DNA of 49,908 bases from Candidatus Velthaea versatilis (GTDB lineage Bacteria > Vulcanimicrobiota > Vulcanimicrobiia > Vulcanimicrobiales > Vulcanimicrobiaceae), in the NCBI GenBank assembly GCA_003134035.1, contig PLAE01000023.1, positions 1 to 49,908 of the forward strand. The letters run 5' to 3'. The translations under genes and the position numbers were made by a program. The notes below the pieces were generated by a model. That model was given only the letters and a program-made list of their open reading frames with translations. It had not been told where the DNA came from and did no database searches. Positions 4,512-49,836 of the stretch are shown in pieces (within the stretch, counting starts at the first letter, position 1; each line of letters starts with the position of its first letter).

Positions 4512-5876
4512 GTGAGCGGCGTCGAGACCGAATTCGCGCGCAAGCGCTGCACCGCGGACGCGGTCGCCGCACGGATCACGTCCGGCGACCGCATCTTTTT
4601 CGGAGAATTCGTGCTGCGGCCGCAGTCGCTGGACGAGGCGCTTGCGCGGCGCGTCGCGGAACTCGAAAATGTCATCGTCGACGGCGTCTGCATCACGGAT
4701 GTGCCGAAGTTCATCGCGGCCGATCCGCGCCGCGAGCACTTCATCTACGACGACTGGCACTTCTCGGCGATCAGCCGGGACTTGGCAAAGCGCGGCTTGT
4801 GCAGTTACATCCCGCTAAGCTACCACCAGGGACCGCGCATCATCCGCAAATACCGATCGTACGACTTCGTGTTCGTCAGCGCGCGTCCGATGGACAAACA
4901 CGGGTATTTCAACTTCGGCTTGGTGAACTCCATCACGTCGGCGGCGATCACCAAGGGCAAGACCGTCGTCGTCGAGGTCAACGCGGCGCTGCCCCATTGT
5001 CTGGGCGGCGCGCAGGAATCGGTCCATATCTCGCGCGTCGACTACGTCGTCGAGGGCCCCAACACGGCGATCCGCGAACTCCACCCCGCCGAGCCCTCCG
5101 ACGTCGAACGCCGGATTGGCTTGCACATCATGCCCGAGATCCAGGACGGAGCCTGCCTGCAGCTCGGCATCGGCGGGCTGCCCAATGCGATCGGGTCGCT
5201 GATCGCGCAAAGCGATTTGCGGGACCTCGGAATCCATTCCGAAATGCTCGTCGACTCGATCATCGACCTGGATCTCGCCGGAAAAATTACCGGCAACGGC
5301 AAGCGGATCGACCGCTTCAAGATCGCGTATACGTTCGGCATGGGGACGCAGCGGCTCTATGACTACATCGACGGCAACCCGGCGTTCGCCTCGTATCCGG
5401 TCAACTATACCAACGATCCGAAGCTGATCGCGCTCAACAATAAGGTGTTCGCCGTCAATAGCGCCATTGAGGTCGATCTCTTCAGCCAAGTCAGCTCGGA
5501 ATCCGTGGGTCCCGTGCAAGTCAGCGGTACCGGCGGCCAACTCGATTTCATCTTGGGCGCGTTCGCCTCGCACGGCGGCAAGGGCATCATCGGGATGAGT
5601 TCCACGTTTACCGACAAGGACGGCAACGTTCAATCGCGGATCGTTCCCACGCTGCGTCCCGGCTCGATCGTCACTCTTCCGCGCTCGATCGTGCAGTACG
5701 TCGCCACCGAATTCGGACTCGTCCAGCTTAAGGGCAAGTCGACTTGGGAGCGCGCCGAGGCGCTGATCGGCATCGCCCATCCGAGGTACCGCGACGAACT
5801 GATCCGGCAAGCCCAAACGATGAACATTTGGCGCGGCGCGCACCGGCACGACGGCGAGTCCATCCTCGCATCCTAA
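4512..5876 (+). CDS. acetyl-CoA hydrolase / CoA-transferase family protein
   Basis: 454 residues, GTG start 25 bp after ldhA. The N-terminal half has the first CoA-transferase domain (IMPEIQDGACLQLGIGGLPNAIGSL); the C-terminal half has the acetyl-CoA hydrolase C domain (SGTGGQLDFILGAF, IVTLPRSIVQYVATEFGLVQLKG). The conserved catalytic glutamate of the family is present as SSESVG, Glu330. The family includes acetyl-CoA hydrolases and butyryl-, 4-hydroxybutyrate- or succinyl-CoA:acetate CoA-transferases; the sequence alone does not tell which. In this operon it most likely moves CoA between acetate and short-chain acyl groups from beta-oxidation or lactate metabolism. Its stop is only 8 bp from the stop of the convergent LuxR-type regulator. 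Confidence 0.9.
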   Translation: MSGVETEFARKRCTADAVAARITSGDRIFFGEFVLRPQSLDEALARRVAELENVIVDGVCITDVPKFIAADPRREHFIYDDWHFSAISRDLAKRGLCSYIPLSYHQGPRIIRKYRSYDFVFVSARPMDKHGYFNFGLVNSITSAAITKGKTVVVEVNAALPHCLGGAQESVHISRVDYVVEGPNTAIRELHPAEPSDVERRIGLHIMPEIQDGACLQLGIGGLPNAIGSLIAQSDLRDLGIHSEMLVDSIIDLDLAGKITGNGKRIDRFKIAYTFGMGTQRLYDYIDGNPAFASYPVNYTNDPKLIALNNKVFAVNSAIEVDLFSQVSSESVGPVQVSGTGGQLDFILGAFASHGGKGIIGMSSTFTDKDGNVQSRIVPTLRPGSIVTLPRSIVQYVATEFGLVQLKGKSTWERAEALIGIAHPRYRDELIRQAQTMNIWRGAHRHDGESILAS

Positions 5877-41091: not shown

Positions 41092-43146
41092 ATGCTCTCG
41101 TTTTGGAACAACTGTAAAATCGGCGTCAAACTGCAGGCTGCTTTTGCGCTGGTGATGCTTGTTTTTTTGGGAGCGCTCACCGGGGTGTTCGTCGTCAACG
41201 GACGCGTTGTCGCTGAGCAAGCCGTGCAAGGTACCCAGTTGATTCCGGCGAGAGTCAACATCTTTCAGATGGAGCTAGCTGCTCGAAGCGCCGATGACGA
41301 GGGTTGGTTTTATCTTGCAAATCGTAACCCCGCGGCCGCGGCGCGATATCTCGCCAACTACCGACAGCATATCGCGGACCTCCTAACCGACATTGAACGA
41401 GCGACCACGTTCGCGGACGACGACGCAGAACGCGCCGCGATCGCAGATTATCACAAATTTCTTGACGGGCCGCAAGGCTATCTACAAGGCAATGAAGTTG
41501 CGTTCGCGGCAAAGTCGGCCGGCAAGTACGCTGACGCCATCAAAGCGTATGGCGATACGTCGGTAGATCCGCTCGTCGACGCCGGACAGAAATATTGGAA
41601 CGACATCAATGCCCAAGTCGATGCCAGCAAAGTGCGCGAAAGTCAGCTCAAAACGCTCGCTAACACCATCGGCCTGACCCTCTCAGGGATCGCCTTAGTG
41701 CTGGGGTTTACGATTGCGACGATCCTTTCACGAGCCATCTCGCGTTCGGTCGGGGCGACTACGATCGCAATCAAAACGATCGTCGACGAAGATATCGCCG
41801 AGCTTGAGCTGTCCTTGGAATATCTGGCCGGCGGCGATCTCACCGCCCGGTTTACTTCAAGCCGGACCGCGCTGCAGGTCGACGGCACCGATGAAATCGG
41901 CGCATTGACGACGAGCTATAACGCCTTAGCCCAAGCCCTGAGCCGGATCGCCGGGCAGTACGGCGCCACGACCAAGAATCTGCGCGACCTCATTTCGGTC
42001 GTCGCCGCCAACAGTACGTCGCTGGCGGCGGTTTCGGACGAAGCGTCGGCGGCAGCCCAGCAATCAACGGTCGCGGTCGGTGAGATCGCCCTGGCAATTG
42101 ACCTGGTCGCCACGGGAGCCCGGGACCAGGCCAGCACGATCAGCGATACAACGGCCGCGATCCAAGGCCTGAGCCGGACGGCTGAGGAGATCGCCATGGT
42201 CGCCACCCATCAGGCCGAGTCGATCGGCCTGACGACCGCCGCTCTGGGCAAGCTCGACGAGGGCATCGGCGCCCTCTCGACGCAAGGCACCATGCTGACC
42301 GCCGCGGCCCGTGAGGCTTCATCTGAAGTTGCTAGCGGGACGGCGGCCGTAACGGAGACCGCCGGAACCATCGCTCAGCTCAAGTCGGTGTCCGCCAAGG
42401 CCGCCGGCGCCATGGCCAGCCTCGAAGAACGATCGTCACAAGTCGAAGAGATCGTCGATACGATTGAAGACATCGCGGATCAGACCAATCTGCTTGCGCT
42501 TAATGCCGCCATCGAAGCCGCGCGCGCCGGCGAGCATGGACGCGGATTCGCCGTCGTGGCCGATGAAGTGCGTAAGCTAGCCGAACGCAGTTCGACGGCA
42601 ACCAAAGAGATCTCCAAGATTTTGGGCGATATCAAGCGCGAAACGGTCCTTGCCGCCGAGGCCATGCGGTCCTCATCGGACTCGATGGATTCGGGAATCA
42701 CCGTCTCCCAGCGTGCCTCGCGCTCGCTCGAAACCGTTGGGCTTGCGATCGGGACGACCACGACCGTTGCCGAGTCCCTGGCGGTCCAGGCCGTGCAAAT
42801 GCGTGATGCATCAGCACGCGTGACGGAGAACATGGACAGTGCGACGGCTGCGGTTGAAGAGAACGCGGCGGCGGCGGCAGAAATGCGCAGTACGACCGGG
42901 TCCATCACCAACGCGATGATTCCCGTCGCGGCAACGGCTTCACAGAACGCGGCGACCGCGCAGCAAGCGGCAATGTCTACCCAGCAGCTTGCACTCGGCA
43001 TCGCCGAGATCGAATCAACGGCCCGCACATTGAGCGATCAGGCACAGCAGCTCAAGAACCTCGTTGCCAAGTTCACCTTCGAGGAGTCGCCTGCCGCTCC
43101 ACCACGCAAGATCGCGGCGAACCGACCGTTGGTACTCCGTCGCTAA
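41092..43146 (+). CDS. methyl-accepting chemotaxis protein
   Basis: 684 residues from ATG 41092 (GAGG at 41082-41085, 6 nt upstream; the TTG at 41065 is rejected). TM1 at ~14-38, a ~150-residue periplasmic four-helix-bundle sensor, TM2 at ~182-207, a HAMP region, then a long cytoplasmic coiled coil. The signalling tip is canonical: [43 protein letters not shown]. The periplasmic part resembles the 4HB/CHASE3-like class, which often senses small molecules. No che genes are adjacent. Confidence 0.93.
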
Positions 43147-43157
43147 AGTAAGCGGCG

Positions 43158-43187
43158 TTGACAGCGCGGAACTCGGCGTGCTAAAGT
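43158..43187 (+). promoter_or_regulatory. promoter of Cys-leader unit 1
   Basis: Perfect -35 TTGACA (43158-43163), 18-nt spacer, TAAAGT (43182-43187) as -10. Predicted start near 43194, 0-4 nt before the leader ORF ATG at 43198. It lies just after the chemoreceptor stop. Confidence 0.6.
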
Positions 43188-43197
43188 TCGCTCTGAG

Positions 43198-43278
43198 ATG
43201 AATCCCGGTCGTTCGCTTTGTCTTGGCTGTCGGTGCCGCTGCTTCCATGAGGATGTGGTGAGGCTGTCGCTGGGCTGA
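43198..43278 (+). CDS. Cys-rich leader peptide 1 (26 codons)
   Basis: ATG to TGA, 26 residues. Starts MNPGRSL, then the cysteine cluster CLGCRCRC (Cys at 8, 11, 13, 15), and ends HEDVVRLSLG. No ribosome-binding site; the ATG sits at or within a few bases of the predicted transcription start, as in leaderless ORFs. An intrinsic terminator begins 28 nt after the stop and a desaturase gene begins after that. This is the layout of a ribosome-mediated attenuator that would sense charged tRNA-Cys. Confidence 0.65.
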   Translation: MNPGRSLCLGCRCRCFHEDVVRLSLG

Positions 43279-43306
43279 CGCAAACGCATTGCGCTGTTAC
43301 CCGAGC

Positions 43307-43332
43307 AACCGCCGTCTGGGCGGTTTTTTTTT
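43307..43332 (+). terminator. intrinsic terminator of Cys-leader unit 1
   Basis: AACCGCC / GGCGGTT stem (43307-43313 with 43319-43325), 5-nt loop, followed by a run of nine T (43324-43332). It is the strongest intrinsic terminator in the window and lies 31 bp before the GTG of the desaturase gene. It also ends transcription from the chemoreceptor gene. Confidence 0.85.
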
Positions 43333-43363
43333 GTGTTTATTTGTTTATTTGAAAGCGAGACGC

Positions 43364-44341
43364 GTGGGAGCGATTGCACGGAGGCTGTACGGAAATGTGC
43401 GTTCGCGCTGGGAGCGCTACGAAGGTCCGACGTGGATCGTCGCGTTGATCGTGTACGGATGGTGGGCGGCCCTAGTTTGGTTCCATGCGTGTATTCCGTG
43501 GTGGCTCATAATTCCGTTGGGCGCCATTGCGATCGCGTGGCACAATTCGCTGCAACACGAAACGATTCACGCACTCGTTCGCGTACCGCAGCCGGTGCGC
43601 TTCACGGTCGCTTTTCCACCGCTGGGTTTATTCGTACCCTACCCGATCTATTGCCGGAGCCATCGCGAGCATCATCGCGACTCGCGCTTGACCAGTCCGG
43701 TTGACGATCCCGAGAGTTACTATCATCGCGAGGACGACTGGCAGCGTTATTCGCGCGCCGTCCGGGGCGCCTATCTCTTCAATCAAACGCTGATCGGGCG
43801 TTTGACGATCGGCCCGCTGATCAGCCTCAATGGATTCTTCAGACGCGAGCTACGCCGTTTCGCCGCCGGAGACCGCTCAAACCTATCGACGTGGGGGTGG
43901 CATATCGTTTGCGTCGGCGCGGTCTTGTTTTGGGTTGGCGCGATCGCACGCATGCCGTTGTGGCAATACGTCTTCTGCGTCGTCTATCCCGGACTCAGCC
44001 TGGGGATGCTGCGGTCTTTTAGCGAACACCGCTACGCCGCGCGCCCCCAACACCGCACGGCGCTCGTCGAAAGCCGCTTTCCGTTCAATCTGCTCTTTCT
44101 CAATAATAGTCTGCACCTCATCCATCATCTGCGGCCCGCGCTGCCCTGGTATCGTATTCCGGGCGTTTGGCGCGAATCGCGCACCAAACTCTTGGACTAC
44201 AACGGCAGATTTTATTTTGCGGGCTATGGTGCCATCGCCGCACGGCACGCATTCCGCCCGTCTTTCGTTCCGGCGCAGCCTCACGCTGAAGCCGCGGGAT
44301 CCAGCGCGCGCATCAACGTTCGGCCGGCACGTGCGACATGA
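43364..44341 (+). CDS. membrane fatty-acid desaturase family protein
   Basis: 325 residues from GTG 43364; the longer open frame from 43289 would run through the terminator and is rejected. Three histidine boxes of the family: H60NSLQHETIH69, H100REHH104 and LHLIHH near 250. Hydrophobic helices flank them (WIVALIVYGWWAALVWF, PWWLIIPLGAIAIAW, HIVCVGAVLFWVGAIA). Di-iron enzymes of this family desaturate or hydroxylate lipids in the membrane; substrate unknown. The stop overlaps the next gene's start by 4 nt (ATGA), so the two are coupled. It sits downstream of a predicted cysteine attenuator, which is unexpected for a lipid enzyme. Confidence 0.88.
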   Translation: MGAIARRLYGNVRSRWERYEGPTWIVALIVYGWWAALVWFHACIPWWLIIPLGAIAIAWHNSLQHETIHALVRVPQPVRFTVAFPPLGLFVPYPIYCRSHREHHRDSRLTSPVDDPESYYHREDDWQRYSRAVRGAYLFNQTLIGRLTIGPLISLNGFFRRELRRFAAGDRSNLSTWGWHIVCVGAVLFWVGAIARMPLWQYVFCVVYPGLSLGMLRSFSEHRYAARPQHRTALVESRFPFNLLFLNNSLHLIHHLRPALPWYRIPGVWRESRTKLLDYNGRFYFAGYGAIAARHAFRPSFVPAQPHAEAAGSSARINVRPARAT

Positions 44342-45084
44342 GTTTTCCAATGTACGACCTGCCTGAACTCGAGGATGCGAACGACGCACTTGTGACAGCG
44401 TTTGAAATGCTCGCGCTCGAAGCGGGCGTCGATCCGCCGATCGCTCCGGTGACGCAGATTTGCGGTTATCCGCTGCAGACCGTCGACCGGGGCAAATATA
44501 CGCTGCTCGGCATTCCCTGCTACCGCCTTACCGGATGCGACGGCCCGGCACACCGTTCGTTCATCGTCGTTTCGCGGTCGTCGCGGGCGAAGACGATACG
44601 CGACTTGCGCGGCGGCAGCTTCGCGCTCAACAGCCTGGACTCGAACACCGGCATGAACCTGCCGCGCCGCAGCTTCGCGGCAATCGCCCAGCGCAAGCCG
44701 TTCTTCAACAACGTGATCGTGACCGGCAGTCATCGTTCGAGTATGCGAGCCGTCGTGCAAGGTCAGGCGGATGCGGCCGCCATCGACTGCGTCACTTTCG
44801 GCCTTCACGCCGATTACAATCCCGCCGCAATTGCCGGGCTGCGCATCTTGGCGCACACGAGCGCGAGTCCCGGCATTCCGTTCGTCACCGCGCGCACGAC
44901 GAGCCGGCGCACCGTCGGATCGCTGCGCCGGGCGCTGCAGACCTTCTCCACACACGCCGGCTTCGTGCCGCTGCGCAAAGCACTGCGCATCGAGCGCATC
45001 GCACCGCCCTCCGAAACGGCATACGATGTTGTCCTGCACTACGCGGCCGAAGCAGCCGCGCTGGGTTACCCCGAGCTGACCTGA
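44338..45084 (+). CDS. PhnD/SsuA-like substrate-binding protein without signal peptide
   Basis: 248 residues. Periplasmic-binding-protein fold of the PhnD/SsuA type: SFIVVSRSSRAKTIRDLRGGSFALNSLDSNTGMNLPRRSF, then VTGSHRSSMRAVVQGQADAAAIDCVTFGL and a C-terminal ASPGIPFVTAR. Relatives bind phosphonates, phosphite or sulfonates for ABC transporters. There is no signal peptide or lipobox, and no permease or ATPase gene beside it. Coupled to the desaturase gene by ATGA. Its place under a Cys-type leader would fit an organosulfur ligand; that is inference. Confidence 0.78.
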   Translation: MSFPMYDLPELEDANDALVTAFEMLALEAGVDPPIAPVTQICGYPLQTVDRGKYTLLGIPCYRLTGCDGPAHRSFIVVSRSSRAKTIRDLRGGSFALNSLDSNTGMNLPRRSFAAIAQRKPFFNNVIVTGSHRSSMRAVVQGQADAAAIDCVTFGLHADYNPAAIAGLRILAHTSASPGIPFVTARTTSRRTVGSLRRALQTFSTHAGFVPLRKALRIERIAPPSETAYDVVLHYAAEAAALGYPELT

Positions 45085-45270
45085 TCGCGGCGGTACCCGC
45101 CGCCGCACGCGCCGGGTGTTTTGGCATCACCTGGCGGCTTGACTGCTTTCCAATGCCATCTGCGTCAACCCCGCGTACCAAGAATGGAAGCCGATGGGAG
45201 CGACGGCGCTAAGGTAGCATCGCCCGACGCCGTGTGGTTCCGGTCGCAAGGCGTCGGTGAACTCACACGC

Positions 45271-45294
45271 TAAGACAAGCAGTAAGACAAGCAG
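45271..45294. repeat. 12-nt tandem duplication
   Basis: TAAGACAAGCAG occurs twice without spacer, at 45271-45282 and 45283-45294. Confidence 0.85.
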
Positions 45295-45305
45295 ACCGAA
45301 CTTCT

Positions 45306-45345
45306 TTGCCCCTCTGACGAGTTGCTTGCCCCTCTGACGAGTTGC
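45306..45345. repeat. 20-nt tandem duplication
   Basis: TTGCCCCTCTGACGAGTTGC occurs twice without spacer, at 45306-45325 and 45326-45345, 11 nt after another tandem duplication and 44 nt before the encapsulin remnant. Confidence 0.85.
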
Positions 45346-45388
45346 TTCGTCTTGCTGAAAATGTGCACAGAAAGTTGGCGAACGAACG

Positions 45389-45499
45389 ATGAGCGAAACA
45401 CCAGCATCGGCACCAGCACGGGCCCTCGGCGACACTGCCGCCCGGCAACTCGCGAACGCCACCAAGACGGTCCCACAATACGACATCATCACGCCTCGC
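45389..45499 (+). pseudogene. family 2A encapsulin shell protein, N-terminal remnant
   Basis: 37 codons, ATG at 45389: MSETPASAPARALGD, TAARQLANATKTVPQ, YDIITPR. This is the conserved N-terminal arm of family 2 (SrpI-like) encapsulins, which continues with W and a ~300-residue HK97-fold shell; here it stops at the junction with a cysteine desulfurase C-terminus in another frame. Family 2A shells package a cysteine desulfurase and are encoded with serine acetyltransferase, and both are found right next door. Identification rests on a short stretch recalled from the family, so it needs a search. Confidence 0.65.
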
Positions 45500-45761
45500 G
45501 GCCGAAAAAACCGGCGTGATCTCGTTCGTCCTGGCGGGGATCGATCCGGTCGAAGTTGGAACGGCGCTCAACGAAGAGGGGATCGCCGTGCGCGCCGGAC
45601 ACCACTGCGCACAACCGATCCTGCGCCGCTTCGGTCTCGAGCAAACGGTACGGCTCTCGCTCGCGCTTTATCACACGGCCGGCGAAGTCGATGCATTCGC
45701 AGCGGCCGTGCGCCGAATCCAGTCCAAGCGGACGCCGCCGACGCCCGCGCGGTTGGCTTGA
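45498..45761 (+). pseudogene. SufS-type cysteine desulfurase, C-terminal remnant
   Basis: 87 codons in a frame different from the encapsulin remnant: AAEKTGVISFVLAGIDPVEVG, NEEGIAVRAGHHCAQPILRRFG, TVRLSLALYHTAGEVDAF. The loop cysteine that takes the persulfide is present (HHC), but the PLP-binding N-terminal three quarters is missing, so it cannot be active. Class II (SufS/CsdA-like) enzymes of this sort are the cargo of family 2A encapsulins. It ends 20 bp from the stop of the convergent serine acetyltransferase gene. Confidence 0.8.
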
Positions 45762-45781
45762 AATGAAAGCGCGAAATAAAA

Positions 45782-46687
45782 TTATATCGAAAACTCCGAG
45801 TGCTCGTACGATAGGAGCTTGAGGATTTTGTCGAGCCCCTGCCCCTGCGTACTTTTTCCCGACGACTTGACGATTTTGGCGGGGATACCAGCGACCGTCG
45901 AGTGCGGCGGCACCGATTGGAGCACGAGCGCGCCGGCGGCGATGCGGGCAAACGATCCGATCTCGATATTACCGAGGATCTTGGCACCCGCGCCGATCAT
46001 CGCGCCGCGCCGGATTTTCGGATGCCGGTCACGCGATTCTTTGCCGGTTCCACCCAACGTCACGTCTTGCAGCAGCGAGACCGCATCTTCGATGACGGCG
46101 GTCTCGCCGACGACCAGCCCCGTCGCGTGGTCGAGAAAGATGCCCTTGCCGAACTTCGCCGCCGGATGGATATCGGTTTGAAAGACATCCGAGGAACGGC
46201 TCTGGAGATAGAGTGCGAAATCCCGCTCGACATGATTCCATAGCCAGTGCGCCACCCGATGCGTTTGAACCGCGTGGAAGCCCTTGAAGTAGAGGACCGG
46301 CTCGATGAGCCGCTCGCACGCCGGATCGCGCTCGAGCACGGCTGCGATGTCGGCACGCATGGCCTTGCCGATCGAGGGCGCCGCGCGAAAGGCGCGCTCG
46401 AACGTTTCGACCAGAACGTCGATGCCCACTGCGCTGTGCGCCAGCCGCACGGCAATCCGATAAATGATCGCCGCCTCGAACGTCGGTTGCGCGAGGATCG
46501 AGTCGACGAACAGTGCAGCGAGCATCGGTGCGCGCCGGTAGGCGTCCTCCGCTTCGGTCCGCAGACGCAACCAAAGCTCGTCGCCCGCCGCTTCCTGCGC
46601 ATGCTGCGCAGCGGTCTCCTCGGGGACGGTCGAACCGGCATCGGGGGCTATCGAAACGACGTGGGTTTTGACGGATTGCAGAGGCAC
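45782..46687 (-). CDS. cysE: serine O-acetyltransferase (EpsC/CysE type)
   Basis: 301 residues, GTG start. The N-terminal half is helical (LRTEAEDAYRRAPMLAALFVDSI); the C-terminal half is a left-handed beta-helix of hexapeptide repeats with the family's key stretch DIHPAAKFGKGIFLDHATGLVVGETAVI, VTLGGTGK and DRHPKIRRGAMIGAGAKILG. It makes O-acetylserine, the carbon acceptor for sulfide in cysteine synthesis. The EpsC form is the one found in family 2A encapsulin loci. Upstream on the same strand are a promoter, a Cys-rich leader ORF and an intrinsic terminator, so expression is probably attenuated by cysteine supply. Confidence 0.93.
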   Translation of the reverse strand: MPLQSVKTHVVSIAPDAGSTVPEETAAQHAQEAAGDELWLRLRTEAEDAYRRAPMLAALFVDSILAQPTFEAAIIYRIAVRLAHSAVGIDVLVETFERAFRAAPSIGKAMRADIAAVLERDPACERLIEPVLYFKGFHAVQTHRVAHWLWNHVERDFALYLQSRSSDVFQTDIHPAAKFGKGIFLDHATGLVVGETAVIEDAVSLLQDVTLGGTGKESRDRHPKIRRGAMIGAGAKILGNIEIGSFARIAAGALVLQSVPPHSTVAGIPAKIVKSSGKSTQGQGLDKILKLLSYEHSEFSI

Positions 46688-46721
46688 GCGTGTTGACCCC
46701 GTACGTTCGACCAGAGAAATT

Positions 46722-46758
46722 TAAAAATAAAAAGCCCCTCGGCAAACAGCGAGGGGCT
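46722..46758 (-). terminator. intrinsic terminator of Cys-leader unit 2
   Basis: On the minus strand AGCCCCTCG (complement of 46758-46750) pairs with CGAGGGGCT (46741-46733), 8-nt loop, followed by TTTATTTTT. It lies 41 nt after the leader ORF stop and about 45 nt before the cysE GTG, where an attenuator would be. Confidence 0.8.
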
Positions 46759-46799
46759 CGTACCATGACGCACCGATCGGTCACATCGTCGCTGGCAAG

Positions 46800-46877
46800 C
46801 TACCGCCGTTTAACGGGCACACGGAAAAACAAACAACGACAACGGCGACAACCCACGACGGACCAGCTGCGGTGCAT
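46800..46877 (-). CDS. Cys-rich leader peptide 2 (25 codons)
   Basis: ATG at 46877, TAG at 46800. Begins MHRSWSVVG, then the cluster CRRCRC (Cys at 10, 13, 15), ends LFFRVPVKRR. No ribosome-binding site: the -10 hexamer ends 6 nt before the ATG, so the A of the ATG is the predicted first transcribed base, i.e. a leaderless mRNA. It precedes an intrinsic terminator and cysE. Stalling at the Cys codons when tRNA-Cys is uncharged would be expected to prevent terminator formation. Confidence 0.7.
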   Translation of the reverse strand: MHRSWSVVGCRRCRCLFFRVPVKRR

Positions 46878-46883
46878 TGTAAA

Positions 46884-46912
46884 TATATACCAGCGCCGCA
46901 AGGCGCTGTCAA
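46884..46912 (-). promoter_or_regulatory. promoter of Cys-leader unit 2 / cysE
   Basis: Perfect -35 TTGACA (46912-46907), ideal 17-nt spacer, TATATA (46889-46884) as -10. The predicted start falls on the leader ORF ATG at 46877. It is the best promoter match in the window. Confidence 0.75.
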
Positions 46913-46948
46913 ACCGGAGTTGCGTGCTTAGCCGGCGACGGCTGAGCC

Positions 46949-47293
46949 CGCGGTTCGGCGCGCGAAGTAAGCGATGCCTTCAGCAATTGGCGCGTCGCAA
47001 TCGACGGAGTTCGGCCGAAAACGAGCGCACTTTGGCAAGAGTTCACGCTCGCCTACCAGCGCCGCTTCGTCCGTCACGTCCAGCCGTATTGGAACGTTCA
47101 CCGGCACCGGATGGCGCCCCAGGTCGCCGAGCAGCTGGCCGGACTTGTCGCGGCGGGCTCACTGCGAATGCTGGCCGGCCGGCCGCAGCACTTTACGGCC
47201 GCGCCGGACGCGGTGCGGGTCTCGATTCGTTCGCGCGGCAGCGACGAGCGGATCGAGATCGACGCGGGGCGCGTCCTCAATTGCAGCGGACCG
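46949..47293 (+). pseudogene. YdhS-like FAD/NAD(P)-binding protein, internal fragment
   Basis: One frame reads SNWRVAIDGVRPKTSALWQEF, RRFVRHVQPYWNVHRHRMAP, QVAEQLAGLVAAGSLRMLAG and ends with a dinucleotide-fold segment RVLNCSGPE. This is the middle part of the FAD/NAD(P)-binding family that includes YdhS (about 450-600 residues). The N-terminal FAD site and the C-terminus are absent; downstream the text stops making sense. The frame stays open to 48046, but past 47300 the translation is Arg/Ser-rich noise. Confidence 0.5.
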
Positions 47294-47439
47294 GAACACC
47301 AAACGGATCCTGCGGGAAGCGCCCGATGCGGGAAGATCCGCGACCGATTTTACGCGCAGCGCCTTATAGCGGAGGACTCGGTTCGAGACGAGCGTGCGGA
47401 ACCGCCGTGCATGTCCGGGTGCAAATGTGGTGCGGGGCA

Positions 47440-47469
47440 TTGCACCAGCGGTACAAGCCGTGTTAAGGT
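47440..47469 (+). promoter_or_regulatory. possible promoter of Cys-leader unit 3
   Basis: TAAGGT (47464-47469) fits the TAnnnT -10 pattern and ends 6 nt before the leader ATG, the same distance as in unit 2. A weak TTGCAC lies 18 nt upstream. The -35 match is poor, so support comes mainly from the shared geometry. Confidence 0.4.
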
Positions 47470-47475
47470 TTCGGC

Positions 47476-47538
47476 ATGTTACGTGAACGCGAACTTTGCT
47501 GTCGTGAGTTCTGTTGTCCGCCGGAGGATCGCGGCTAG
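47476..47538 (+). CDS. Cys-rich leader peptide 3 (20 codons)
   Basis: ATG to TAG, 20 residues: MLRERELCCREFCCPPEDRG, with two Cys-Cys pairs at 8-9 and 13-14. No ribosome-binding site; the ATG is at the predicted transcription start. A 6-bp hairpin and then an intrinsic terminator follow, the terminator starting 41 nt after the stop exactly as in unit 2. The next recognisable gene downstream is a SulP sulfate permease, 430 nt beyond the terminator. Confidence 0.68.
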   Translation: MLRERELCCREFCCPPEDRG

Positions 47539-47551
47539 GGCTTGCGTGGAA

Positions 47552-47566
47552 CGACGGCCGCCGTCG
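47552..47566 (+). promoter_or_regulatory. hairpin between leader ORF 3 and its terminator
   Basis: CGACGG / CCGTCG with a 3-nt loop, placed between the leader stop and the terminator. It could be part of the alternative (anti-terminator) fold. Confidence 0.4.
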
Positions 47567-47579
47567 CGCTCCGTGTCGG

Positions 47580-47613
47580 GACCCTCGCCGTTGGTGAGGG
47601 TCTTTTTTCTTTT
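47580..47613 (+). terminator. intrinsic terminator of Cys-leader unit 3
   Basis: GACCCTCGCC pairs with GGTGAGGGTC (47580-47589 with 47593-47602, one G-U pair), 3-nt loop, followed by TTTTTTCTTTT. A textbook intrinsic terminator with no complete gene upstream to terminate except the leader ORF. Confidence 0.85.
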
Positions 47614-47760
47614 ACGCCCATCCCTGAAAGAAGCCGGATTGTTACGTCAATTGGCCGCCCTCGGCCCCAACTCGACGCGGAAGCGACGCGCGAACGTTCG
47701 ACGCGAAGCCCGCGTGCGAAGAATCCGACAATCGCAAAGCGTTCGTGAGGAAAGCGAAAA

Positions 47761-47973
47761 ATGCACGTCCGTCTGGGGCAAATCGCTTGGGAACTCGACC
47801 TCATCGCGCACGATAAAGCGTGCCGTGAGGATTCGACGGACGCACGCACCCGACCAGCCGAACGGAACGCCGCCATGGCTCACGATCGCGCTGAGGAGAT
47901 TCAATTCAGCCGGCGTCCGGGGATCTTCGCGCGTCTTGCGGCGCGCCTTTCGTTTACAAGCGGTCAGCGCTAA
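47761..47973 (+). CDS. possible small protein, unknown
   Basis: 70 codons from ATG, with GAGG about 9-10 nt upstream: MHVRLGQIAWELDLI, then a charged middle and RPGIFARLAARLSF. It resembles nothing I know and has no paralog here. It would be the first gene after attenuator 3. The last 19 bases are the first copy of a direct repeat. May be spurious. Confidence 0.25.
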   Translation: MHVRLGQIAWELDLIAHDKACREDSTDARTRPAERNAAMAHDRAEEIQFSRRPGIFARLAARLSFTSGQR

Positions 47974-47994
47974 TGTACAAGCGGTCAGCGCTAA
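47955..47994. repeat. 19-nt direct repeat, period 21, upstream of SulP
   Basis: TACAAGCGGTCAGCGCTAA occurs at 47955-47973 and 47976-47994, exactly 21 bp apart. Each copy holds the short inverted repeat AGCG-GTCAG-CGCT. The centre spacing of two helical turns and the position ~50-90 bp before the SulP start make an operator pair possible; a slippage duplication is the alternative. Confidence 0.6.
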
Positions 47995-48042
47995 AGACGA
48001 AGGTAGGTACGTGATGTCCCCCAGCCTCGGAGTGCCCGGCAC

Positions 48043-49836
48043 GTGAGCGCGGTGTTTCGCCGGCCATTTGCGTATAGCCTAACGGCTTTTCGCAGCGACC
48101 TCATTGCCGGTGCGACGGTCGCCGCGATCGCGGTTCCCCAAGCGATCGCGTACGCGTTGATCGCCGGCGTCGATCCGCGCTACGGCCTCTACTCCGCCAT
48201 CATCGTAACCATCGTTGCATCGCTGCTCGGGTCGTCGTCGCATTTGATCAACGGACCCACGAACGCGATTTCGCTCGTCGTCTTTAGCGCCCTCGCACCG
48301 TTTACGGGCCAGGTAGACGGGTACCAAGCGCTGTTTTTGTTGGGCATCATCGCCGGCTCGATGCAGATCGTCATCGCGGCATTGCGGCTCGGCGACTTGA
48401 CGCGCTACGTTTCCGAATCGGTGATCCTCGGCTTCATGGCCGGGGCCGGCTTGCTCATCGCGATCGGCCAAATCGGTAATTTCATCGGCGCCGCCAAAAA
48501 GGGTTCGGGCGATCAATCCGTTCTCGTGAACACGTGGCTCACGCTCAGCCAAGGCGTCTTCAACCTGCGCGCGGTTGGGCTGGGCGTCGGCACGATCATT
48601 GTGGTCCTGGCACTGCACCGCGTCATCACCAAGTACAAGCTGCCGCGCGTCGACATGCTTGCGGGCTTGATTCTCGCCTCGCTCGTCGCCGCGTATTTCG
48701 GTTGGTCGCTGCCGTCTCCCACCGGGAAAACGATCGTTTCCGTCGTTGGCGCCATTCCCGCGGCGCTTCCATCGTTTCATCTTCCGGTGATCAACGTCGC
48801 TTGGGCTTTGCGACTCATCAACGGTAGTTTGGCGATTGCTCTGCTCGGATTGCTCGAAGCGCTCGCGGTCGCTAAATCAATTTCGACCTATACTCGGCAA
48901 CCGCTGAACTACAACCGCCAGTGCCTCGCCGAAGGCGTCGGCAATGTTGTCGGCGGCTTTTTTGAGGCGCTGCCGGGCTCGGGATCGTTGACGCGCTCGG
49001 CGATCAACTTCCAAGCCGGCGCAGTAACGCGAGCGTCGGGTGTGTATTCCGGTATCATCGTCGGCCTCGTCGTTCTCGCCCTTGGTCCGTATGCCCGGTT
49101 CATTCCGAAGTCCGTCCTGGCCGGTTTGCTCTTCATCACGGCAGCCCGCTTAATCGATTGGAAGCGCCTCAACTATGCGATTCGGGCTTCACGTTTCGAT
49201 GCCGCGCTCGTCGCGGTCACGGCGTTCACGGCGATCTTCATCGACGTCGAAGACTCGATTCTCGCGGGCGTCGCTCTCTCGATCATCCTGTTCTTGCTGC
49301 GTGCGTCGAAACCCGGCCTGCGCGAGCTCATCGTCGGCCCCGAACGTGTCGTTCGCGAGCGGCGAAGCGGCGAGCTGCGTCAAGCGGGACTTCTGATCTA
49401 CGATCTGGAGGGCGAGCTCTTCTTCGGCGCAGCGCCGCAATTCGAACGCCTTCTGCACGACATCGATGCCGAGACCGATCGGGACGGCGCCACCTATCTC
49501 GTGCTTCGCTTGAAACGGACCTGGAATCCCGACATGGTCGTCGTCGAACATCTCGAGCAGTTTCTGCGCGCGGCCGAAACGCGCGGGTTGACCGTTCTGC
49601 TCGCCGGTATTCGACCCGATCTGATGCGCATATTCGGCAACATTGGGCTCACGACATGGTTTCCGTCCGAGCGCATCTTCCCCGAAGAGGACGAGGCCTT
49701 TTCGGCGACGCTGCGTGCCGTGCGCCATGCCGGCGAGTTGGCGAACCGGCACCAAACGGCGGCGGCAGATCAGCCCGCCGCTACGCCCGAGTCGGTTCGT
49801 TGGGACGAGATGAACGCGGCGTATTATCTGGTCTAG
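48043..49836 (+). CDS. SulP family sulfate permease with STAS domain
   Basis: 597 residues, GTG start with GGAG 10 nt upstream. N-terminal ~420 residues: about 12-14 hydrophobic segments with family motifs AGATVAAIAVPQAIAYALIAGVDPRYGLYSAI, SHLINGPTNAISLVVF, ISTYTRQPLNYNRQCLAEGVGNVVGGFFEALPGSGSLTRSAINFQAGA. C-terminal ~440-570: STAS domain (LRQAGLLIYDLEGELFFGAAPQFERLL, TYLVLRLKRTWNPDMVVVEHLEQFL). SulP proteins carry sulfate, bicarbonate or other anions; lying downstream of a Cys-type leader and beside cysE, sulfate is the best guess. Confidence 0.93.
   Translation: MSAVFRRPFAYSLTAFRSDLIAGATVAAIAVPQAIAYALIAGVDPRYGLYSAIIVTIVASLLGSSSHLINGPTNAISLVVFSALAPFTGQVDGYQALFLLGIIAGSMQIVIAALRLGDLTRYVSESVILGFMAGAGLLIAIGQIGNFIGAAKKGSGDQSVLVNTWLTLSQGVFNLRAVGLGVGTIIVVLALHRVITKYKLPRVDMLAGLILASLVAAYFGWSLPSPTGKTIVSVVGAIPAALPSFHLPVINVAWALRLINGSLAIALLGLLEALAVAKSISTYTRQPLNYNRQCLAEGVGNVVGGFFEALPGSGSLTRSAINFQAGAVTRASGVYSGIIVGLVVLALGPYARFIPKSVLAGLLFITAARLIDWKRLNYAIRASRFDAALVAVTAFTAIFIDVEDSILAGVALSIILFLLRASKPGLRELIVGPERVVRERRSGELRQAGLLIYDLEGELFFGAAPQFERLLHDIDAETDRDGATYLVLRLKRTWNPDMVVVEHLEQFLRAAETRGLTVLLAGIRPDLMRIFGNIGLTTWFPSERIFPEEDEAFSATLRAVRHAGELANRHQTAAADQPAATPESVRWDEMNAAYYLV

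Follow-up and report, generated by a model that had tools for sequence, protein, structure and literature searches.

Leaderless-type cysteine-codon leaders before intrinsic terminators: a predicted attenuator regulon in Candidatus Velthaea versatilis and its relatives

What do three short reading frames rich in Cys codons, gathered within 4.5 kb of bacterial DNA, control, and by what means? The question is raised by a stretch of 49,908 nucleotides (nt) from Candidatus Velthaea versatilis (contig PLAE01000023.1; the whole stretch is called the window below), in which an earlier note had described three upstream open reading frames (uORFs) with clustered Cys codons, each set between a promoter-like site and a terminator. 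The sequence and our scanner agree with it on positions and peptides, the hairpins lie 28, 40 and 39-41 nt past the uORFs where 28, 41 and 41 nt had been claimed, and Pfam recovers the downstream genes that it had named: a fatty-acid desaturase with a Phosphonate-bd protein, a serine acetyltransferase and a SulP/STAS permease (Table 1). Judging from sequence comparison, we propose that these elements are very probably ribosome-mediated transcription attenuators of the trp type, which would sense charged tRNA-Cys from a leaderless uORF.

Anatomy of the leaders and their alternative folds

The scanner, which combines a promoter score with 15-19 nt spacing, a uORF with clustered Cys and a hairpin with a T-run, returned leaders 1, 2 and 3 over the window and nothing else. 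Under composite criteria (promoter score >= 7, at least three Cys per 10 codons in the uORF, terminator score >= 19) the 49,908-base window holds three matches versus 0.005 per shuffled window, a single match having arisen in 200 dinucleotide shuffles. The -10 elements of leaders 1, 2 and 3 are so close to the ATG (Table 1) that a Shine-Dalgarno site has no space; with transcription starts deduced from the -10 spacing and placed 5-9 nt past the -10, transcripts are predicted to begin at the ATG or a few bases off. An Rfam search of window positions 42900-48300 (E <= 1) found neither a SAM riboswitch or T-box nor any other family, a sub-threshold ALIL match lying elsewhere only.

The geometry is narrow in the lineage at large: Cys leaders measure 115-144 nt from ATG to T-run, their uORFs have 19-27 codons with Cys mostly at codons 3-15, and the hairpin follows the stop codon by 16-43 nt. 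Between -10 and ATG they have 4-10 nt, which would leave a 5' untranslated stretch of a few nt at most. In 27 of 29 leaders the scanner places an intrinsic terminator past the leader ORF and ahead of the first gene; the remaining two and the metY leader of relative G008 show, on visual inspection, GC-rich hairpins whose T-tracts are less regular.

Do these leaders hold a second structure that could keep the terminator from forming? For 27 leaders the RNA was freed 12 nt past the first Cys codon and folded to just short of the terminator 3' arm, with dinucleotide shuffles of the intervening segment as control. The terminator 5' arm pairs upstream at a mean of -9.3 kcal/mol, versus -5.2 kcal/mol in shuffles (combined z = -8.4), and engages 8.4 bases versus 5.9; the fold check proposed in the earlier note, with a ribosome placed at the Cys codons, does reveal an antiterminator that competes with the terminator when the 27 leaders are combined. 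In 24 of the 27 the partner segment overlaps positions -14 to +12 of the stop codon, and when only the RNA past a stop-bound ribosome is freed the stabilisation drops to -2.6 kcal/mol. A stop codon within the antiterminator strand is a recurrent motif, seen in the SulP and cysE leaders (Table 1) and in relatives, where CGGCGTAG pairs with CTCGCCG.

Leaders across the genome, the lineage and other pathways

A promoter-only pattern that is ignorant of Cys (TTGAC-N17..20-TANNNT-N3..11-ATG) matches the genome 37 times, versus 6 for the reversed control, and every match found with a short uORF and a terminator is a Cys or Met/Cys leader, the desaturase and cysE leaders of the window among them. Six further leaders (Table 1) and the three of the window, the SulP leader with its -35 TTGCAC included, give a total of at least nine, a lower bound that comes from searches by pattern and by protein and from individual stretches of the genome. 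The attenuation proposed in the earlier note is supported, Cys codons being all that otherwise unrelated leader peptides share in several genera and an alternative fold being present; the regulon that it had called local is genome-wide. Loose Cys patterns (four spaced Cys codons; T-run, CxC and ATG) were no commoner than in reversed controls, and a Pfam ThiF search of the genome contributed nothing further. Leaderless ArsR genes with MSMQRCC starts (C206) were set aside as false positives of the pattern.

One of these leaders precedes a tRNA gene. The genome has a tRNA-Gly/tRNA-Cys pair of the ordinary kind (C45) and a second tRNA-Cys behind an attenuator (C103), and relative G019 repeats the arrangement, with a pair on C51 and a tRNA-Cys behind MKHVGVCCCACCISPALPCRLGATSA with its terminator, then an ABC permease gene. 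In the other relatives examined tRNA-Cys is solitary or beside tRNA-Gly, and no such leader was found adjoining it. G019 also has a third, degenerate tRNA-Cys-like sequence (L200 ~5738-5803) that ARAGORN does not accept.

The sulfite reductase has its nearest named records in 'Candidatus Eremiobacterota' (61-65% identity), which makes this the probable phylum, and among 60 genomes cysH occurs in 7 and a sulfite reductase match in 9, six of them strong. Eight genomes of the lineage yielded 28 Cys or Cys/Met leaders, 19 of these in seven relatives. Cys leaders with terminators precede cysI in G019, G008 and G007 and twice in G005, and they precede cysH in five of seven genera, the relatives being G019, G014 (a cysH-cysI pair), G007 and G008. 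The peptides MLARACCCPGCPPARSIGTG, MLLCCCLLMACPASVARRSASS, MIYRCCRYACGTCAFAAHGRVVI and MFSAHAIMMMCCISPLRGSA have only Cys in common, though the cysI enzymes behind them are 50-66% identical; the earlier note had suggested conservation of Cys in relatives' leaders as a check, and Cys (or Met/Cys) codons are indeed kept in otherwise unrelated peptides. Mixed Met/Cys leaders stand at metY in three genera (MNGPAGRCQTMKTSMLCLLREVV in this genome, MSAHARMMTMAMCCFPRGSA and MNRRSLAMMMCCCSPRGTV in G005 and G008), and a homoserine dehydrogenase (hom) leader of G024 has Met and Cys codons as well (MISFASRMSTCC). In bog_1524 (L207 2915-3003) the cysI promoter of G019 is found near base-for-base with the Cys uORF and the terminator gone, which looks to be a natural attenuator loss.

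The same design is found with codons for other amino acids (stretches L332-L349, L288, L319-L323). The promoter-only pattern in five relatives, with gene names taken by eye from translations, reached leaders of identical layout at leuA (MRNRAIGLILVLTGSSTT, MNARTIVLSIILSGVPPA, MNGPTIFSDLLLSGTPQA), ilvB (MISAQSLILVVLISRPVGIG, MSQLVLVVSLLIREPHGSA) and ilvE (MNLARLRLGLVILGATRRTRLRSS), together with a DAHP synthase leader that has Phe/Tyr/Trp codons (FAYWYWF; MSRRMFAYWYWFTPQRMLVR). An Ile/Leu/Val leader with a terminator precedes ilvB in 16 of 18 orthologues, own genome included (MFELSSIPVVVSLRLAVLLGRRAAFT), and in the other two ilvB is apparently not the first gene. This tracking of the downstream pathway by codon content is the strongest independent support for the attenuation reading.

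Beyond the lineage, 80 sulfite-reductase loci from GTDB gave matches that are single cases: one metagenome-assembled genome (MAG) of the Gemmatimonadetes shows MVTCPSTTCCPCCRRMC, a leaderless-type leader followed by a terminator, and in a Chloroflexi MAG (L259 2681-2926) two Cys uORF-terminator units stand in tandem upstream of sulfite reductase. Gracilimonas mengyeensis (L282 1517-1636) has a CCCMCMCMMC leader and a terminator upstream of a rhodanese-like gene.

Table 1. Leaders and neighbouring genes of the window (positions of the window) and further leaders of the same genome (contigs)
Feature	Position	Strand	Details
Promoter-like site, leader 1	43158..43187	+	TTGACA (43158-43163), 18 nt, TAAAGT (43182-43187); scanner score 14.9
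Leaderless-type Cys uORF 1, MNPGRSLCLGCRCRCFHEDVVRLSLG	43198..43278	+	10 nt from -10 to ATG
Predicted antiterminator 1	43262..43313	+	segment immediately 5' of uORF stop pairs with terminator 5' arm
Intrinsic terminator 1	43307..43332	+	AACCGCC-GTCTG-GGCGGTT and T-run; -11.7 kcal/mol; hairpin 28 nt past uORF stop
Fatty-acid desaturase family gene	43364..44341	+	PF00487, E=1.4e-31; likely GTG start 43364, open frame since 43289
Phosphonate-bd (PhnD-like) protein gene	44338..45084	+	PF12974, E=1.9e-21; overlaps desaturase gene
cysE, serine acetyltransferase	45782..46687	-	301 amino acids; SATase_N, PF06426, E=6.4e-34
Intrinsic terminator 2, GAGCCCCTCGCTGTTTGCCGAGGGGC	46729..46759	-	TTTTT; arms GAGCCCCTCG/CGAGGGGCTT; -19.1 kcal/mol; 40 nt past uORF
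Predicted antiterminator 2	46750..46805	-	AACGGCGGTAG, includes uORF stop TAG, versus CTCGCTGTTT; p=0.07
Leaderless-type Cys uORF 2, MHRSWSVVGCRRCRCLFFRVPVKRR	46800..46877	-	4 nt from -10 to ATG
Promoter-like site, leader 2	46882..46912	-	TTGACA (46912-46907), -10 TATATA/TATATT; score 15.8
Promoter-like site, leader 3	47440..47469	+	TTGCAC, 18 nt, TAAGGT; score 7.2
Leaderless-type Cys uORF 3, MLRERELCCREFCCPPEDRG	47476..47538	+	6 nt from -10 to ATG
Predicted antiterminator 3	47533..47589	+	GCGGCTAGGG, includes stop TAG, versus CCCTCGCCG; -11.4 kcal/mol, p=0.10
Intrinsic terminator 3, GGGACCCTCGCCGTTGGTGAGGGTC	47578..47610	+	T-run; arms GACCCTCGCC/GGTGAGGGTC; -19.8 kcal/mol; 39-41 nt past uORF
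SulP-type sulfate permease with STAS domain	48043..49836	+	PF00916, E=6.2e-83; PF01740
Leader MQYVLCCCPCRCFGDSVGPA	C19		divergent pair; upstream of cysH-cysC-cysA-sbp-cysTW (sulfate ABC operon)
Leader MTQPPFGCPRLGCCRVMRRRVMSALLP	C19		divergent from MQYVLCCCPCRCFGDSVGPA; upstream of sulfite reductase (cysI)
Leader MLPRPLACRCCPCWPLLVSRTN	C103		upstream of tRNA-Cys gene
Leader MPALIACTSPCCRPALGRRSFHLI	C222		upstream of ssuABC-like ABC transporter operon
Leader MKRAARHGCPGRFCPPEQQG	C154		upstream of 2OG-Fe(II) dioxygenase
Leader MNGPAGRCQTMKTSMLCLLREVV	C78		Met and Cys codons; upstream of metY

Several observations touch the window's leaders and their promoter type. The SulP leader (47476-47610) resembles the 2OG-dioxygenase leader (L102 2101-2235), with TTGTCCnCCGGAG, GGCTAGGG and GCCGTTGGTGAGGG in both; the two look paralogous, suggesting that attenuators are copied between operons. 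Upstream of the SulP gene, in the long stretch that separates it from its attenuator, lies a tandem 19-nt direct repeat TACAAGCGGTCAGCGCTAA with 21-nt spacing (47955-47994). Between the PhnD-like gene and cysE sits the C-terminal remnant of a class-V aminotransferase of the cysteine-desulfurase type (45513-45758, +; PF00266, E=9e-19, last 62 positions only), which by appearance looks like a decayed gene. A different element, a leaderless-type mini-ORF of 4-5 codons after a TTGAC promoter (MPLGG*, MPLGR*, MPLG*, MSIGG*), recurs in several genera: in this genome (C183:15000-20000; L104 ~3640-3570, -), G005 (C1:837952, C3:2004218), G008 (C1:2097365) and G019 (C48:35438). In this genome a hairpin with a T-run and then a gene reading as rpoB come next; G005 has a hairpin-like element there, ahead of a gene reading as rpoC (both names by eye). 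The mini-ORF is possibly an attenuator of RNA polymerase genes.

Proposed mechanism and competing explanations

Sequence anatomy, codon clusters, Cys conservation in unrelated peptides, geometry and alternative folds are what can be observed; transcription start, translation, stalling and read-through we infer to proceed as follows. RNA polymerase would start at the ATG or within ~4 nt of it, and a 70S ribosome, needing no Shine-Dalgarno site, would load on the 5' end and trail the polymerase. With ample Cys-tRNA it would read the 19-27-codon uORF through and rest on the stop, masking the 5' strand of the antiterminator, so that the terminator could fold and transcription would stop at ~+120 to +145. 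With scarce Cys-tRNA it would stall at the Cys cluster, ~20-45 nt before the stop position; the antiterminator, whose 5' strand is at the stop codon and whose 3' strand is the terminator 5' arm, would form first and the polymerase would read on into the sulfur genes. Because the at least nine parallel elements would share one signal, Cys-tRNA, they may constitute a regulon without a regulator protein.

A number of results weigh against this mechanism. Tested one by one against shuffles, the antiterminators of leader 1 (p=0.85) and of the cysI leader (p=0.32) do not stand out, and placing the ribosome at the Cys codons still leaves the terminator as the minimum-energy structure of the full-length leader in many cases. 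Because the terminator, with its 3' arm transcribed, is often the preferred structure at equilibrium, the choice between the two folds has to be made kinetically, as it is in known attenuators. The SulP gene starts ~440 nt downstream of terminator 3, the three leaders of the window have no testable orthologue (the nearest SulP is at 32%), and no such leader was found at cysH of G024 or of G026 or at the cysE-like gene of G008. A cysE query found no attenuators at relatives' shorter cysE genes. Many surveyed loci were also picked for their sulfur genes, so that the leader counts are not a random sample.

Could the uORFs act on translation instead, as in mycobacteria, so that a stall at the Cys codons lays open the first structural gene's ribosome-binding site and the hairpins are incidental? 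In M. smegmatis such uORFs, leaderless and polycysteine, are established (PMC9031893, PMC13236596), which lends the idea some weight. A strong hairpin with a T-run nevertheless lies at near-fixed distance in the leaders, the distance between T-run and start codon ranges from a few nt to ~440 nt, the antiterminator and the terminator compete for one arm, and one target is a tRNA gene, which has no ribosome-binding site; we regard translational attenuation as quite improbable here. A riboswitch or RNA-binding protein of a new kind could also govern the terminators, with the Cys codons as a by-product, given that terminator/antiterminator pairs by themselves fit any sensor. We hold this to be very improbable: Rfam gave no match, no conserved RNA or aptamer is evident across leaders outside the stop/terminator segment, and the codon content of the leaders tracks the downstream pathway.

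Two further explanations deny the uORFs a regulatory role altogether. They could encode small functional Cys-rich proteins for metal or redox binding, the terminators merely ending their transcripts; CxC and CC motifs are typical of metal ligands, and the leaderless ArsR genes returned by the same pattern do have a Cys-rich N-terminus. This is extremely improbable in our view, since no residue but Cys, or Met where the leader serves a Met pathway, is kept, orthologous cysI genes included, the uORFs adjoin sulfur genes with their stop codons overlapping the antiterminator, and the same architecture carries Ile/Leu/Val or Phe/Tyr/Trp codons at the corresponding pathways. Finally, chance might place GC-rich DNA that reads as Cys codons beside ordinary terminators belonging to upstream genes; TGC/TGT runs do occur at other places in the genome, and the loose Cys pattern shows no excess over its reversed control. 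The composite count in the window, set against its shuffled expectation, and the recurrence at orthologous genes in other genera refute chance as a general explanation and leave it an almost negligible probability.

Known systems and significance

The mycobacterial leaderless polycysteine uORFs, whose source study is reportedly Canestrari et al. 2020 (doi 10.1111/mmi.14498), are the precedent that the earlier note had invoked; the leaders here resemble them in their clustered Cys codons at cysteine-metabolism operons and differ in mechanism. The mycobacterial ORFs are leaderless, stand at several cysteine-metabolism operons and give a common response via Cys-tRNA, a stalled ribosome exposing the ribosome-binding site of the gene behind the leader, so that they act on translation (PMC9031893, PMC13236596). 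Cys leader peptides without terminators had been predicted in Actinobacteria in 2005 (PMC1262725); those of mycobacteria regulate translation of the gene that follows and have no terminators (PMC1262725), whereas the leaders described here have an intrinsic terminator and an antiterminator, belong to a different phylum, include a tRNA gene as target and comprise mixed Met/Cys leaders.

Closer in output is uORFC-8-2 of Rhodobacterales, a Cys-codon leader with a terminator predicted for cysS, in which tandem Cys codons precede an intrinsic terminator and ribosome-mediated transcription attenuation was proposed (PMC8632094). It is confined to cysS, with a conserved two-stem RNA and Cys at codons 14-15, and is described neither as leaderless nor as a regulon (PMC8632094); the leaders here differ in genes and Cys positions and have no Rfam match in the window. 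Streptomyces lividans has leaderless leader peptides, trpL1, leuL2 and ilvL, with apparently Rho-independent terminators (PMC8079986), alike in terminator and, as predicted here, in leaderless start, and unlike in their Trp, Leu and Ile/Val/Leu codons and the lack of a Cys regulon; its metL (MSTTSD...ARCMCRRMCAF) has C/M codons and a typical terminator is absent (PMC8079986). The trp/his-type attenuators of Proteobacteria share regulatory codons, the antiterminator/terminator pair and a stop position that masks the antiterminator strand, but the leaders here are without a Shine-Dalgarno site and without space for one. A limited search of open-licence literature found no precedent for leader-peptide control of tRNA genes. 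What is new, then, is a predicted regulon in which leaderless-type Cys leaders are paired with intrinsic terminators, a tRNA-Cys target, mixed Met/Cys leaders and lineage-wide use.

Taken as a whole, we consider it likely, with less assurance than attenuation itself, that the organism has a regulator-free Cys regulon made of leaderless transcription attenuators alone, with a second, inducible tRNA-Cys gene under a Cys-codon attenuator, and that this is one branch of a lineage-wide multi-pathway system. If so, a shortage of Cys-tRNA would raise cysteine supply and tRNA-Cys together, and a tRNA gene would be governed by a codon-specific attenuator responding to the charging level of its own tRNA. 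Ribosome-directed regulons, an idea taken from mycobacteria, would then also occur in a distant phylum that is largely uncultured, the Cys version being built there for transcription termination. Leader codons match their pathways (Cys at Cys/sulfate genes, Met and Cys at metY/hom, Ile/Leu/Val at ilvB/leuA, Phe/Tyr/Trp at DAHP synthase), and the layout (TTGAC, TAnnnT, ATG, ~20 codons, terminator near +125) varies so little that it offers a simple rule for reading genomes, in which the leader codons name the amino acid controlling the operon behind them. Such a rule helps to assign genes of unknown function; by it, the desaturase/PhnD-like pair would serve sulfur supply.

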